From positions 1 to 46,990 of the forward strand of contig JASJBF010000057.1 in the NCBI GenBank assembly GCA_030066685.1: DNA of 46,990 bases, in the 5' to 3' direction. The translations under genes were made by a program, and so were the position numbers. The notes below the pieces were generated by a model, which was not told the DNA's origin, searched no databases, and saw only the letters and a list, made by a program, of their open reading frames with translations. Origin of the DNA: Kiloniellales bacterium. GTDB lineage: Bacteria; Pseudomonadota; Alphaproteobacteria; Kiloniellales; JAKSBE01. Shown one piece after another: positions 14,826-19,791 of the stretch; positions within the stretch are counted from its first letter, which is position 1, and every line of letters begins with the position of its first letter.

Positions 14826-15584
14826 TCAGCCGGTCTTGGCGCGTTCGCGCCGGACCAGCTCCATCAGCTGCCGCATGGGCACGGCGCCGGGGACGATTTC
14901 CTCGCCGACGACGAAGGCCGGGGTGCCGTTGATCTGGAGCGCCTGCCCCAATCTGTGGTTGTCCCGGATCTGCTGCTCGACGCCTTCAGAGACCATATCC
15001 TTGCGCAGTCGCTCGACGTCGAGGCCGAGATCGCTGGCAACGGCCAGGACCCTCGCTTCGTCCAGCTGGCCCGGCATGGTCATCAGCGCGAGGTGGAAGT
15101 CGCGGTAGCGGTCCTGCTCGGCAGCGGCCAGCGCCGCCCGCGCCGCCACCACGGACTCCGGCCCGAGGATGGGGAACTCCTTGAAGACCAGGCGGATGCT
15201 GCCGTCCTTCTCGACCGCGTCCATGAGGTCGGCGGTGACCTTGCGGCAGTAAGGGCAGCGATAGTCGAAGAACTCGACCAGGGTAATGTCGCCGTCAGGA
15301 TTGCCGAGGACGGGACTGTTCGGATCGCGCCCCAGGGTATCCAGGTTCGCTAAGATGGCATTGCGCTGGGCTTCGATCTTCGCGAGGCGCTGCTTCTCCT
15401 CCAGCCGCTGCATGCTCTCCAGCAGAATCTCGGGATGCTCGAGCAGGTAGTCGCGGACGATCTCCTCGATGGCCCGGGTCTCGGTTTCGCTGAAGCTGGC
15501 TTCGGGCGCGGCCGGCTCCTCGGCCGCGGCAGTGACGGCGCCGGCCAGAAGAGCCGCGGCCGTGATACTGACGAAAACCCTCAT
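14826..15584 (-). CDS. Periplasmic DsbA-family thiol:disulfide interchange protein
   Basis: 252 residues. A signal peptide (MRVFVSITAAALLAGAVTAA, then AE) is followed by a helical N-terminal extension (about residues 30-80, EIVRDYLLEHPEILLESMQR) and a thioredoxin fold. The active site is C110-P-Y-C113 in FFDYRCPYCRKV; the cis-Pro loop is NGTPAFVVG. The extension and CPYC resemble the Com1/BdbD/ScsC-like DsbA group, in which the extension can mediate oligomerisation. Whether it oxidises or isomerises disulfides cannot be decided here. ATG 15584 is preferred over open codons upstream because it begins the signal peptide. Confidence 0.9.
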   Translation of the reverse strand: MRVFVSITAAALLAGAVTAAAEEPAAPEASFSETETRAIEEIVRDYLLEHPEILLESMQRLEEKQRLAKIEAQRNAILANLDTLGRDPNSPVLGNPDGDITLVEFFDYRCPYCRKVTADLMDAVEKDGSIRLVFKEFPILGPESVVAARAALAAAEQDRYRDFHLALMTMPGQLDEARVLAVASDLGLDVERLRKDMVSEGVEQQIRDNHRLGQALQINGTPAFVVGEEIVPGAVPMRQLMELVRRERAKTG

Positions 15585-15667
15585 GGTCTGGCCCTCTGCT
15601 CGGTTGTCCCGGCGTCCTTGGCAGTCGTACATACAGGTCCGCGCCCGAAGCGGCAAACCCGGCTCCG

Positions 15668-17017
15668 TCAGCTGCGCTTGCGCAGGCGGTCGGCCAGTCC
15701 GTCGATGTCCTGCGCCCTGAGCCATCCGGGAGAATACTCCGGCAGGAGCTTCAAGGCGCGCTGGGCGAAACCCTTGGCCTCCCTGGGGTTATTCATTGCC
15801 AGGGCGGCCTCCGCCTTCGACAGGGTCGACATGCCCTGGTCGCCCATGCGGCCCTGGACGCTGGCCAGGAGGCGCCAGCCTGTCACGTTACGGGGCTCGC
15901 GCTGGGTAACGTACTGCAGGTGTCCCAGGGCTTCCTTGTTCAGGTTCGGCTGGTTGAGCTCGATCTGGACGTGCGCCAGGGCGCGACGGATCAGCGGCGC
16001 GTCGGGAAGGATCTGGACCGCCTTCTGGTATTCCGGCCTGGCGTCGGCAAGCCGGCCGCTGTGGAAGAAAATGTCGCCCTTGAGCTCGTGGAAATAGGGG
16101 TCGCCCGGGTAGTCCTCGATCAGGCTGTCCGCCTCCGCCAGCGCCTCTGGCATTTGGCCGCGCTCCAAATAAGCGATCGACCGGGCGTAGCGGGCCGGCA
16201 AGGAATCGTCGTTGTCGCTGAACCTCCTGAGCGCCTTAATCGGGGTCAGATAGCCGAGAAGCTTCGCGCGCATGCGCTCATGCATCGCGACCAGCTCCGG
16301 CGGCGCGGGCTCGTCGGCAAAGCGCGACTCTTGCACCGCCGCCCGCAGCGAGGCGATACGGTCCTGAGTCAGAGGGTGGGTGCGAAGATAGGGATCTTGC
16401 CGGCTCGACAGCAGGGCCTCCTGATCGCCGAGGATCTCGAAGAACTCCAAGAGGCCGCGCGGCGAGTATCCGGAGGACTCCAGCAGCTTGATCGCGGCTT
16501 GGTCGGCGGAGGCCTCCTGTCCCCGGGTGTAGGCCAGCAGGCTGGCGACCGCGGCGCCCTGGCCGCCGCTGATGATCGCCGCGCCGGCATCGCCGCGCCC
16601 GGTCGCGATCGCCGTGCCAATGCCCAGGACGTAGGACGCGATCAGGGCGGCCGTGGTCTTCTGGACCTCGTCGCCCCGCGTTACGATATGACCGCCCGTG
16701 ATGTGGCCCGTTTCGTGGGCGATCACCCCCATCACCTGAAGGGGCGTCTCGGCGCGCAAGAGCAGGCCGGTATGGAGGAACATATTCTGACCGCCGGCGA
16801 CGAAAGCGTTGAGCCTGGGGTCGTCTATCAGGTAAACGTCGACAGCCTGCGGGTTCAGCCCGGCAGCCAGGAAAATCGGGGTTGAATAGGCGCGGACGGT
16901 GTTCTCGATCTCCGTGTCCCGTATGAAGCGAAGACCCTTCGCCTCGACGACCGCAGGCGCCATGACGGCAGCCAGGACGAGAAGGACACAGAGTTTGGCA
17001 ATGGGTCGAATGATCAA
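15668..17017 (-). CDS. M48 family metalloprotease with TPR repeats (BepA-like)
   Basis: 449 residues from a TTG start. A signal peptide (LCVLLVLAAVMAPAVVEA, residues 9-26) exports the protein to the periplasm. The zinc site is HETGH at 101-105, with the third ligand Glu168 in TRGQEASADQ. The C-terminal half (about 265-440) is a series of TPR helices, including ALAEADSLIEDYPGDPYFHE and ALAHVQIELNQPNLNKEALG. This is the architecture of E. coli BepA, which degrades or assists misassembled outer-membrane proteins such as LptD. No ATG lies early enough to preserve the signal peptide. The start overlaps head-to-head the likely start of the GGT-like gene. Confidence 0.9.
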   Translation of the reverse strand: MIIRPIAKLCVLLVLAAVMAPAVVEAKGLRFIRDTEIENTVRAYSTPIFLAAGLNPQAVDVYLIDDPRLNAFVAGGQNMFLHTGLLLRAETPLQVMGVIAHETGHITGGHIVTRGDEVQKTTAALIASYVLGIGTAIATGRGDAGAAIISGGQGAAVASLLAYTRGQEASADQAAIKLLESSGYSPRGLLEFFEILGDQEALLSSRQDPYLRTHPLTQDRIASLRAAVQESRFADEPAPPELVAMHERMRAKLLGYLTPIKALRRFSDNDDSLPARYARSIAYLERGQMPEALAEADSLIEDYPGDPYFHELKGDIFFHSGRLADARPEYQKAVQILPDAPLIRRALAHVQIELNQPNLNKEALGHLQYVTQREPRNVTGWRLLASVQGRMGDQGMSTLSKAEAALAMNNPREAKGFAQRALKLLPEYSPGWLRAQDIDGLADRLRKRS

Positions 17018-18632
17018 GGATTGGGTTCCACTTCTCCGCAGTGAAGGTAAGCGGAAAACACAAGCAATTCAACGCGAATGCATCGCAATCCGCTGGGCGG
17101 CGCCGTCGGCGGCCGCCCTGGGACTGGCGGTCATGCTCACGGCCTGCGGCAGTAGCGGGCCGAGCGGCCAGGTGATCGAAGTCACCGGCTTCGCCGGCCT
17201 GGTGGCGGCTGACGAGCCCTTCGCCGCGACGGTGGGCCGGGACGTCCTGGGCAACGGCGGCGGCGCGGCGGACGCGGCGGTGGCGATGTACTTCACCATG
17301 GCCGTGACCCTGCCGTCGCGGGCCGGCCTGGCCGGCGGCGGCGTCTGCATCGCCTTCGACCGGCAGGAGGAAGCCGGCGAGGTCATCGACTTCCGGCCAA
17401 AGACGACGGCCGGCGGCGGTGTCGTGCCCGGGAACACCCGCGGCATGGCGGTTCTGCACGCGCGGCGCGGTAGCCAGAGATGGCAGTACCTCCTGCGCCG
17501 GGCGGAGAACGTCGGCCGATTCAATGCCACCTACAGCCGGGCCCTGGTCCGCGACATCCAGGCCAGTCAGGCCAAACTCCGTGGAGATCCCGAGGCCGCG
17601 CGCCTCCTCCTCGTTGCCGGCGGCACGCCGCCGCGCGAAGGGGACAAGCTGGACCAGGTCGAGCTGGTGACGGTGATCTCCGGTATCCGCAGGGAAGGCG
17701 CCGGCTATTTCTACGCCGGGCCCTTCGCCCAGCGTCTCGCCGAGGCCTCGACCTTGGCCGGTGCCGCCATGACGACCGACGACGTTCGCGGCTACACCCC
17801 GCAGGTCGCCGAGGCGGTGAAGGTCCCCGTCGGGCCGCACACCGCCTTCTTCGCACCTCAACCGGCTTATGGAGGCACGGCCGCGGCCCTGATCTGGAGC
17901 CTGCTGACGGAGCTCGAGGACTACGGCGGCGCCGGGGCCGAGGAGCGGGCGACCCTCCTGGCAGCGGCATCGCTCGCCGCCCTGGACGGCCCGGCGACCG
18001 GGGAGGGCCTCGCGAAGATCCGGAGCGTCTTCGATGAAGGCGATCTGCAGCGCCTGCAGGCCTCCTTTCGGCCCGAGCCGGCCGGTCTCGGCGGCCCGGC
18101 CCCTGACGCTGGCGAAGGCGCGAGCTTCGTCGTCGCCGATCAGTGGGGCTCCGCGGTCGCCTGCAGCTTCACCATGAACGGGCTCTTCGGCGCAGGCCGC
18201 GTGGCGCGCGGCACCGGCCTGATTCTGGCGGCCGCGGATCGGAGCAACCCCGGGCCGAGCTCTCCTGTCATCCTGGCCAACGAGAACACCGGCGAACTCT
18301 ACTTCGCCGCCGCAGCCGGCAGCGGCGCGAGCGCGGTCTCGGCCCTGTCCACCGTGATGCTGGAGGCCGTCGCCGCCGAGCGGCCCCTGCCGAACGCGGT
18401 GGCGCGCGGCCGGATCCAGGCGTCCCTGCCCAGCGGCACGGTTCTGGTCGAAAGCGGGCTTCCCGCCGGCGAACGCGCGGCCCTGGCCGCGCAAGGCCTG
18501 CAGACCGTGCCCGTCGATCGCCTGGGACGGGTCAACACGCTGCATTGCCCCCAGGGCCTGCGCCGCGATCCGGACGACTGCGAGGTGGTCACCGACCCGC
18601 GCGGCTGGGGCCTGGCGCGGCGGGCGCAATAG
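17010..18632 (+). CDS. Gamma-glutamyltransferase-like lipoprotein lacking the catalytic threonine
   Basis: About 540 residues. A lipobox-like VMLTAC at 42-47 (counted from ATG 17010) suggests a lipoprotein. The body follows the GGT fold: VLGNGGGAADAAVAMYFTMA and GLAGGGVCIAFD in the large-subunit half, VIDFRPKTT, VVPGNTRGMAVLHARRG, and DQWGSAVACSFTMNGLFGAG in the small-subunit half. In active enzymes the last block is preceded by the autocleavage nucleophile in a TTH triplet; here the aligned residues are G370-A371-S372, so self-processing and hydrolysis of glutathione look lost. The start is uncertain: ATG 17010 gives a long n-region, ATG 17001 is also in frame, and AAGG at 17044 has no standard start after it. 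It is followed by an aminotransferase after four bases. Confidence 0.8.
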   Translation: MIKDWVPLLRSEGKRKTQAIQRECIAIRWAAPSAAALGLAVMLTACGSSGPSGQVIEVTGFAGLVAADEPFAATVGRDVLGNGGGAADAAVAMYFTMAVTLPSRAGLAGGGVCIAFDRQEEAGEVIDFRPKTTAGGGVVPGNTRGMAVLHARRGSQRWQYLLRRAENVGRFNATYSRALVRDIQASQAKLRGDPEAARLLLVAGGTPPREGDKLDQVELVTVISGIRREGAGYFYAGPFAQRLAEASTLAGAAMTTDDVRGYTPQVAEAVKVPVGPHTAFFAPQPAYGGTAAALIWSLLTELEDYGGAGAEERATLLAAASLAALDGPATGEGLAKIRSVFDEGDLQRLQASFRPEPAGLGGPAPDAGEGASFVVADQWGSAVACSFTMNGLFGAGRVARGTGLILAAADRSNPGPSSPVILANENTGELYFAAAAGSGASAVSALSTVMLEAVAAERPLPNAVARGRIQASLPSGTVLVESGLPAGERAALAAQGLQTVPVDRLGRVNTLHCPQGLRRDPDDCEVVTDPRGWGLARRAQ

Positions 18633-18636
18633 CGGC

Positions 18637-19791
18637 ATGGCCCTCAAAGCCGCACAGCGAGGCAAGGTCCCGCCCTTCATCGTCATGGACGTCATGCGGG
18701 CGGCCGCGGCGCGGGAAGCGGCCGGTGGCGAGGTCCTGCACATGGAGGTCGGACAGCCGGGCACCGCCGCCCCGCCGGCGGTCCTGGAGGCCGTGCGACA
18801 GGCCCTGGACAGCGACCGCGTCGGCTACACCCTGGCGCAGGGGATCGAGCCGCTGCGCCGGCGGATCGCGCGCCATTACCAGGAGAGCTACGGGGTCGAG
18901 GTCGATCCCGAGCGGGTGATGGTAACCACCGGCTCCTCCGGCGGCTTCCTGCTGTCTTTCCTCTCGGCCTTCGAGGTCGGCGACCGCGTCGCCCTGGCGG
19001 CTCCGGGTTATCCCGCCTATCGGAACATCCTGGCGGCGCTCGGGGTGGAGCCGGTCCTGATCCCGACCGAAGCCGAGCATCGCTTCCAGCCGACGCCGGA
19101 CCTGCTTGACCGGGTGGCCGGGCCGCTCGACGGCCTGATCGTCGCCAGCCCTTCGAATCCGACCGGGACGATGCTCGACCACGCGCAGCTCGCCGCTTTG
19201 GTGGACTACTGCGCGGCGCGCGGGCTGCGCCTGATCTCGGACGAGATCTACCACGGCATCACCTACGAGGCGCCGGCGGTCACCGCACTCGGGCTGACCG
19301 AAGACGCTATCGTCATCAACAGCTTCTCGAAGTACTTCTCCATGACCGGATGGCGCCTGGGCTGGATGGTCCTGCCCGAAGACCTGCTGAGGCCAGTCGA
19401 ATGCCTGGCGCAGAACCTTTTCATCTCGCCACCGACCCTGTCGCAGATCGGTGGCCTCGCGGCCTTCGAAGCCCGCGAGGTACTGGAGGGCTATGTCGCC
19501 AACTATGCGCGGAACCGCGCGTTCCTGCTGCAGGCCTTGCCGGCAGCGGGCTTCGACCGGCTGGCGCCGGCAGACGGTGCCTTCTACCTCTACGCCGATG
19601 TCGGCCATCTCACCAACGACAGCGAGGCCTTCTGCCGGCGCATGCTGGCCGAGACCGGGGTTGCGACCACGCCCGGCCTCGACTTCGACCCCGAGCGGGG
19701 CCATCGCTTCGTCAGGTTCTCCTTCGCCGGCACGGAATCCGTGATGCGGACGGCCGCGAGCCGGCTCCAGGACTGGCTGAAGAGGGGTTAG
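18637..19791 (+). CDS. Class I/II PLP-dependent aminotransferase
   Basis: 384 residues, fold type I aminotransferase of the aspartate-aminotransferase superfamily. The PLP lysine is K232 in NSFSKYFSMTGWRLGW; SPSNPTGTML carries the cofactor-contacting Asn; ISDEIYHGITYE has the PLP-N1 aspartate and the tyrosine. RFSFAGTESVM near the C-terminus holds the arginine that binds the substrate carboxylate. The closest general type is AspC/AAT-like or MalY/PatA-like, but the amino donor cannot be named. It starts four bases after the GGT-like gene, so the two form an operon; a link between the two products is only inferred from this. Confidence 0.9.
   Translation: MALKAAQRGKVPPFIVMDVMRAAAAREAAGGEVLHMEVGQPGTAAPPAVLEAVRQALDSDRVGYTLAQGIEPLRRRIARHYQESYGVEVDPERVMVTTGSSGGFLLSFLSAFEVGDRVALAAPGYPAYRNILAALGVEPVLIPTEAEHRFQPTPDLLDRVAGPLDGLIVASPSNPTGTMLDHAQLAALVDYCAARGLRLISDEIYHGITYEAPAVTALGLTEDAIVINSFSKYFSMTGWRLGWMVLPEDLLRPVECLAQNLFISPPTLSQIGGLAAFEAREVLEGYVANYARNRAFLLQALPAAGFDRLAPADGAFYLYADVGHLTNDSEAFCRRMLAETGVATTPGLDFDPERGHRFVRFSFAGTESVMRTAASRLQDWLKRG

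Follow-up and report, generated by a model that had tools for sequence, protein, structure and literature searches.

A conserved alphaproteobacterial family of probable pseudoenzyme lipoproteins with the gamma-glutamyltransferase fold

The window analysed here (the whole stretch of DNA, 46,990 nt) carries a gene whose product resembles gamma-glutamyltransferases (GGTs) and has a glycine at the position of the threonine used by these enzymes for autocleavage and as nucleophile. We consider it likely that the protein performs no GGT chemistry and belongs to a conserved alphaproteobacterial pseudoenzyme family, being a lipoprotein with the GGT fold in a single, uncleaved chain. Because the nucleophile Thr, the segment containing Asp433 and, in most members, the equivalent of Arg114 are gone, the protein most likely neither processes itself nor transfers or hydrolyzes gamma-glutamyl groups; from the sequence, catalytic activity is probably absent. 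A preliminary description of this DNA had already proposed that the Thr was lost while the fold was kept in a lipoprotein serving another job. Alignment, structure modelling, phylogeny, purifying selection and gene order support this proposal; the job itself is one that we infer.

Results

The gene and its reading frame

The features of the region are listed in Table 1. Read from the ATG at 17010, the frame is open and specifies 540 amino acids. The product gives a full-length match to PF01019 (gamma-glutamyltransferase; E = 1.7e-45, 156.3 bits against a gathering cut-off of 27) and a score of 138.4 bits with TIGR00066, the NCBIfam GGT equivalog, which is below the cut-off of 357.85. PF01019 is matched by all 65 members of the family alignment A2 at E ≤ 0.001. 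Translation may in fact begin elsewhere than at ATG 17010, which is changed to ATA in a locus of the same genus (L003), whereas an in-frame ATG at 17001 is kept in 3/3 loci aligned. Inspection of the segment between 16990 and 17070 showed that both candidate GGT-like starts (ATG 17001 and ATG 17010) overlap the beginning of the divergent M48 frame, a TTG at 17017. This overlap leaves no space for two promoters unless one of the starts lies further in. The closest two relatives are Kiloniellales bacterium MAGs (named records, best 80 of 254 confirmed).

Table 1. Coordinates of the features in the window.
Feature	Position	Strand	Basis or remark
DsbA/ScsC-like thioredoxin-fold protein, adjoining M48	14826..15725	-	profile match
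M48-TPR metalloprotease, BepA-like, divergent	15668..17017	-	profile matches
Putative pseudo-GGT lipoprotein gene, PF01019 fold	17010..18632	+	start uncertain: 17001 or later start also possible
Lipobox L43-T44-A45-C46, +2 Gly	17136..17147	+	read by eye from sequence; start codon unsure
Cys113, near-invariant; Met99 of E. coli GGT by profile alignment	17346..17348	+	137/138 C, 1 gap
Arg129, column of E. coli Arg114	17394..17396	+	profile alignment to 2e0w
Gly370-Ala371-Ser372, where GGT has the autocleavage/nucleophile triplet Thr-Thr-His	18117..18125	+	alignments
Cys385, invariant; Val406 of E. coli GGT by profile alignment	18162..18164	+	138/138 C
Shortened loop, where ordinary GGTs carry N-N-x-x-D-D-F with Asp433	18222..18260	+	13 residues here
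Cys513 and Cys524, either side of C-terminal loop	18546..18581	+	137/138 C each, 1 gap each
PLP aminotransferase, class I/II	18637..19791	+	next gene; starts 4 bases past stop codon

Sequence sets

Genomes of the order and of the class were collected by profile-based searches; the 20 class loci examined further were hand-picked from the class match list and are not a random sample. Another 79 named loci came from searches with a peptide pattern that includes Cys385 and a second one that includes PSR; this set therefore overstates the conservation of the Cys385 and PSR columns. The control set of 35 comprises those PF01019 matches that scored best and were opened, and is not the full set of matches. 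Altogether, 168 proteins were extracted, and 45 sharing their last 300 residues with another were dropped; loci repeating the window or L031 (L001, L038, L046 and L146) had been skipped before. Rows corresponding to ordinary GGTs (L031, L032, L033, L035, L036 and L045) stand outside the family counts. The tree was built by a quick method from 83 of the 138 family rows and 14 of the 35 control rows.

The nucleophile threonine is missing from most of the family

The preliminary description read the TTH nucleophile triplet as Gly370-Ala371-Ser372, and two registers agree with this reading. The best GGT of the same genome (L031) is of the E. coli type, carries TTH and scores 668 bits to 2e0w; when the window protein is aligned to it, Gly370 falls in the column of the nucleophile Thr, Ala371 in that of the second Thr and Ser372 in that of the His. 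The PDB small chains, where the Thr is residue 1, have their residue 4 paired with residue 373 of the window protein, which is the same register. The triplet is directly followed by F-V-V-A-D377-Q-W-G-S-A-V.

Among the 138 aligned family members, the nucleophile column contains Ser in 55, Gly in 35, Ala in 30, Thr in 11, Gln in 2, and Phe, Asp, Glu, Arg or Asn in one each. Alphaproteobacterial orthologues do share the change, as had been surmised, with 127 of 138 lacking Thr. For the 36 orthologues of the order, the figures are G14, A11, S10 and T1. Alignment with ordinary homologues, proposed at the outset as a check, found Thr at this column in 35/35 PF01019 controls from the window's genome and order, against Gly in the window. 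As the two residues that follow the control Thr vary (T-T-H, T-S-H, T-V-Y and others), the first Thr constitutes a fair test of a GGT enzyme, one that the family fails. Of the 439 columns of the family, it comes 205th by conservation. The earlier suggestion that Ser372 might be a displaced nucleophile finds no support: its column is mostly Gly (G81, S45, T7, A4, V1; n = 138).

The same genome (G000) encodes, on contigs C2, C23, C32 and C34, six more PF01019 proteins (L031-L037), one of which is near E. coli GGT. All six have Thr at the nucleophile column, and their triplets vary (TTH, TVW, TCH, TTQ).

Passages of a review (PMC8062742) describe the processing-site Thr as invariably conserved among bacterial GGTs. 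They report that GGT from E. coli, H. pylori or B. licheniformis shows neither processing nor detectable activity once this Thr is replaced by Ala, that processing is impaired by T392A and by H393G, and that the T353A variant of the G. thermodenitrificans enzyme is unprocessed yet shows some activity.

Other catalytic columns and the substrate loop

The loop that carries Asp433 in ordinary GGTs is 12-18 residues long in 138/138 family members, compared to 29-39 residues in 35/35 controls, and N-N occurs within it in 1/138 family members versus 29/35 controls. Arg is found at the Arg114 column in 4/138 members, the window included; as a family feature, Arg129 was thus rejected as a sign of a kept donor site. 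At the oxyanion pair (Gly483-Gly484) the window has S438-G439, and the two columns contain Gly in 105 and 87 of 118 sequences, with the register being less sure there. Some data go against the pseudoenzyme reading. The Thr-dyad and Asn411 columns are mostly retained (T99 and S34, and N105, respectively, of 138), the window keeps Arg at the Arg114 column, and the nucleophile column has Ser or Thr in 66/138 members. According to parts of PMC8062742, no activity is detected for E. coli R114L, but B. licheniformis R109S retains 85% activity (R109L, 5% hydrolysis) and B. subtilis D445A retains 40% hydrolysis. Because of these exceptions among mutants, the main weight falls on the loss of the nucleophile, with the remaining losses as supporting arguments.

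The hydroxyl residues deserve further consideration. Three Magnetovibrio sequences (L093, L098, L099) keep T-T at the old processing site, in the form T-T-S/T, and many Acetobacteraceae have S-T-x; the hydroxyl retained in some lineages may be a relic, may still function or may be there by chance. The three Magnetovibrio sequences lack both the His and the Asp433 segment. If the residue were at work, the family would consist of Ntn-type hydrolases of altered specificity, in which the Ser or Thr of the nucleophile column (S55 and T11) acts in many lineages, the Gly and Ala forms being secondary losses. The slow self-processing still seen in Thr-to-Ser GGT mutants (in passages of PMC8062742) and the different chemistry of LmbA-type GGT homologues (in parts of PMC6085390 and PMC6085292) are compatible with such a scenario. 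Yet the window carries Gly, the loop is short throughout the family, and five rows bearing Thr or Ser (L093, L098, L099, L120, L133) have T, V, T, L and L at the Arg114 column. Furthermore, the tree requires at least 6 changes between Thr and other residues and at least 17 between hydroxyl and no hydroxyl, as for a loosely constrained small residue. We therefore regard a working hydrolase as unlikely.

Fold

A structure model had been proposed as a further check of the pseudoenzyme reading. For the AF2 model, made with 65 sequences (pLDDT 86.1, pTM 0.86), the best PDB match is 2e0w_A, which is E. coli GGT as its uncleaved T391A precursor (Z 46.1, 445 residues, 2.6 A); B. licheniformis GGT as its T399A precursor (Z 43.8) is also among the best matches. 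That precursor mutants top the ranking is partly due to their being full-length single chains. As judged from the model, the GGT fold is retained. The lipoprotein would stay as one uncleaved chain with this fold.

Lipobox and conserved cysteines

The lipobox reported in the preliminary description is present, with its Cys46 column being Cys in 135/138 members (2 gaps, 1 Ala). Under the E. coli +2 rule, Gly at position +2 leads to the outer membrane, which is thus the location expected of the protein by this rule. Four additional Cys residues, at positions 113, 385, 513 and 524, distinguish the family: the corresponding columns contain 0, 1, 0 and 1 Cys in the 35 controls (L222 and L036) and none in 16 further ordinary GGTs from a phylum-wide search. 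Together with the lipobox Cys, the four columns are all within the eleven most conserved of the family. In the AF2 model, Cys513 and Cys524 flank a turn between two predicted strands (508-512 and 525-528), which makes a disulfide between them likely. Cys113 and Cys385 each sit on a strand of the model and perhaps form a second disulfide, linking the would-be large and small subunits. The four residues, probably engaged in two disulfides, may stabilize the uncleaved chain.

Gene neighbourhood

The aminotransferase gene mentioned in the preliminary description comes next in the same direction. On the other side lie the divergent M48 gene and the DsbA-like gene. Of 18 loci examined from the order, all contain M48, 17 have the DsbA gene and 15 have the aminotransferase gene. 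Counts elsewhere were made in two ways: by scoring a gene wherever it occurred in the locus, which is less strict, and under tight distance limits, which failed on overlapping stop-to-stop frames. By the former, the 79 named loci (best 80 of 254) include M48 in 63, dsbA in 71, the aminotransferase in 75 and rne in 39; for the 20 further class loci the numbers are 19, 16, 17 and 11. By the latter, M48, dsbA, aminotransferase and rne score 51/73, 48/68, 55/70 and 37/64 in the named loci, and 17/19, 15/17, 14/19 and 11/18 in the class loci.

No M48 gene was seen in 16/79 named loci, ten of them titled with genera of the Acetobacteraceae, and this weakens the case for M48 as an obligate partner. 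In five of the 16 (L108, L115, L119, L122 and L132), less than 2.2 kb is available upstream of the frame, so M48 may lie beyond the contig. Elsewhere in the Acetobacteraceae, M48 is present, as in L120. Where M48 was not seen, 14 of the 16 loci have a DsbA-like frame directly upstream of the GGT-like gene. We also observed that, among L115-L142 (mostly Acetobacteraceae), many loci of this type have Ser at the nucleophile column.

The frequency of the DsbA-like gene in named loci, including those without M48, could also be taken to indicate that Cys113 and Cys385 (137/138 and 138/138) form a new catalytic or redox site, with the DsbA-like protein as partner. Against this, conservation is much the same at all four Cys, in keeping with two structural disulfides, and long stretches of sequence separate them, so that no CxxC is formed. 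We find this explanation less likely still than a working hydrolase.

Considering the conserved DsbA-like, M48 and aminotransferase neighbours, an envelope role tied to oxidative folding is the most economical guess. The BepA homologue is the divergent neighbour and not the GGT-like protein; BepA is a periplasmic M48-TPR protease of E. coli, and the neighbour matches its model (NF052400, 1.7e-48) with 165.6 bits, below the equivalog cut-off of 570. BepA acts in LptD maturation and degradation, according to parts of PMC8423444 and PMC7950410.

Extent of the family, phylogeny and selection

Orthologues were identified in 36 of the 38 genomes searched in the order, the window's genome counted. 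The remaining two yielded an ordinary GGT (L045, from G025) and a weak match only (G032, 69% complete). At the level of the class, the family profile has a match with E ≤ 1e-40 in 151/385 genomes; this figure is rough, as some of the matches are ordinary GGTs and divergent members may have escaped. In a phylum-wide search, 14 of the 30 loci opened encode the four Cys and no Thr nucleophile, and all 14 come from the own genome, order or class; the other 16 have T-T-H and none of the four Cys. No family member from outside the class appeared among these 30 loci (≤3 candidates scored per genome). In the tree, the family and the ordinary GGTs are split at one branch (SH-aLRT 100, quick tree). These proteins are a conserved alphaproteobacterial family, set apart from ordinary GGTs by one branch, and the change at the processing site is a family trait.

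Comparison with L002 (NG86) gave dN 0.107 and dS 0.434 (dN/dS about 0.25), and YN00 gave 0.084/1.50 and 0.058/0.73 for two gene pairs. Within its genus, the gene is under purifying selection. A lineage-specific accident can be rejected, since the change is common to the family, which forms a separate branch and is under such selection; with no point found in its favour, the idea of a decaying pseudogene, a sequencing error or a misalignment has a negligible chance of being right, given the dN/dS value, the absence of internal stops from the top match in each of the 36 orthologue-bearing genomes, the unambiguous DNA at 18117-18125 and the lack of the T-T-H triplet in orthologues too.

Discussion

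The proteins described here resemble GGT (E. coli Ggt, 2dbu/2e0w) by homology and fold across residues 61-539, and they mostly keep the Thr-dyad and Asn411 columns. They differ from GGT in that most members lack the nucleophile Thr, no N-N-x-x-D-D-F is recognisable, a lipobox and four near-invariant Cys are present, and the score is under the TIGR00066 cut-off. With LmbA/Ant6-type homologues they share the GGT fold (Z 34.0 to 6j3i) and, presumably, the fact that their function is not gamma-glutamyl transfer. LmbA, in contrast, is catalytic, cleaving a C-C bond according to parts of PMC6085390 and PMC6085292. One of the LmbA structure entries has T421A in its title, which suggests that LmbA uses a Thr nucleophile. 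By its fold, the capsule transpeptidase CapD is another PF01019 relative (Z 24.5 to the large chain of 3g9k). It is processed and active, unlike the window protein, which is without the nucleophile Thr. Among the titles and abstract openings listed from the open-licence literature, we found no report of a bacterial GGT pseudoenzyme or of the present family.

What the uncleaved protein might do can be approached through its neighbours. More speculatively, the adjoining DsbA/M48 (BepA-like) envelope quality-control module might include it as a subunit that is anchored in the membrane and serves for binding or as a scaffold. In its fullest form, the proposal is that a pseudo-GGT lipoprotein widespread in alphaproteobacteria, disulfide-locked and uncleaved, is anchored in the membrane and binds the clients of a DsbA/M48 (BepA-like) module for outer-membrane assembly and quality control, as one of its subunits. 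We put this forward tentatively and think it more doubtful than not, as the adaptor role is suggested by gene order alone.

The findings delineate a whole branch of PF01019 in which the processing-site Thr, called invariable in parts of PMC8062742, is not conserved. Because their matches far exceed the cut-off, PF01019 alone would name these proteins gamma-glutamyltransferases and wrongly predict glutathione metabolism. A simple signature sets the family apart: a lipobox, four Cys, no nucleophile Thr and a short loop. The family is a testable candidate envelope factor of alphaproteobacteria.
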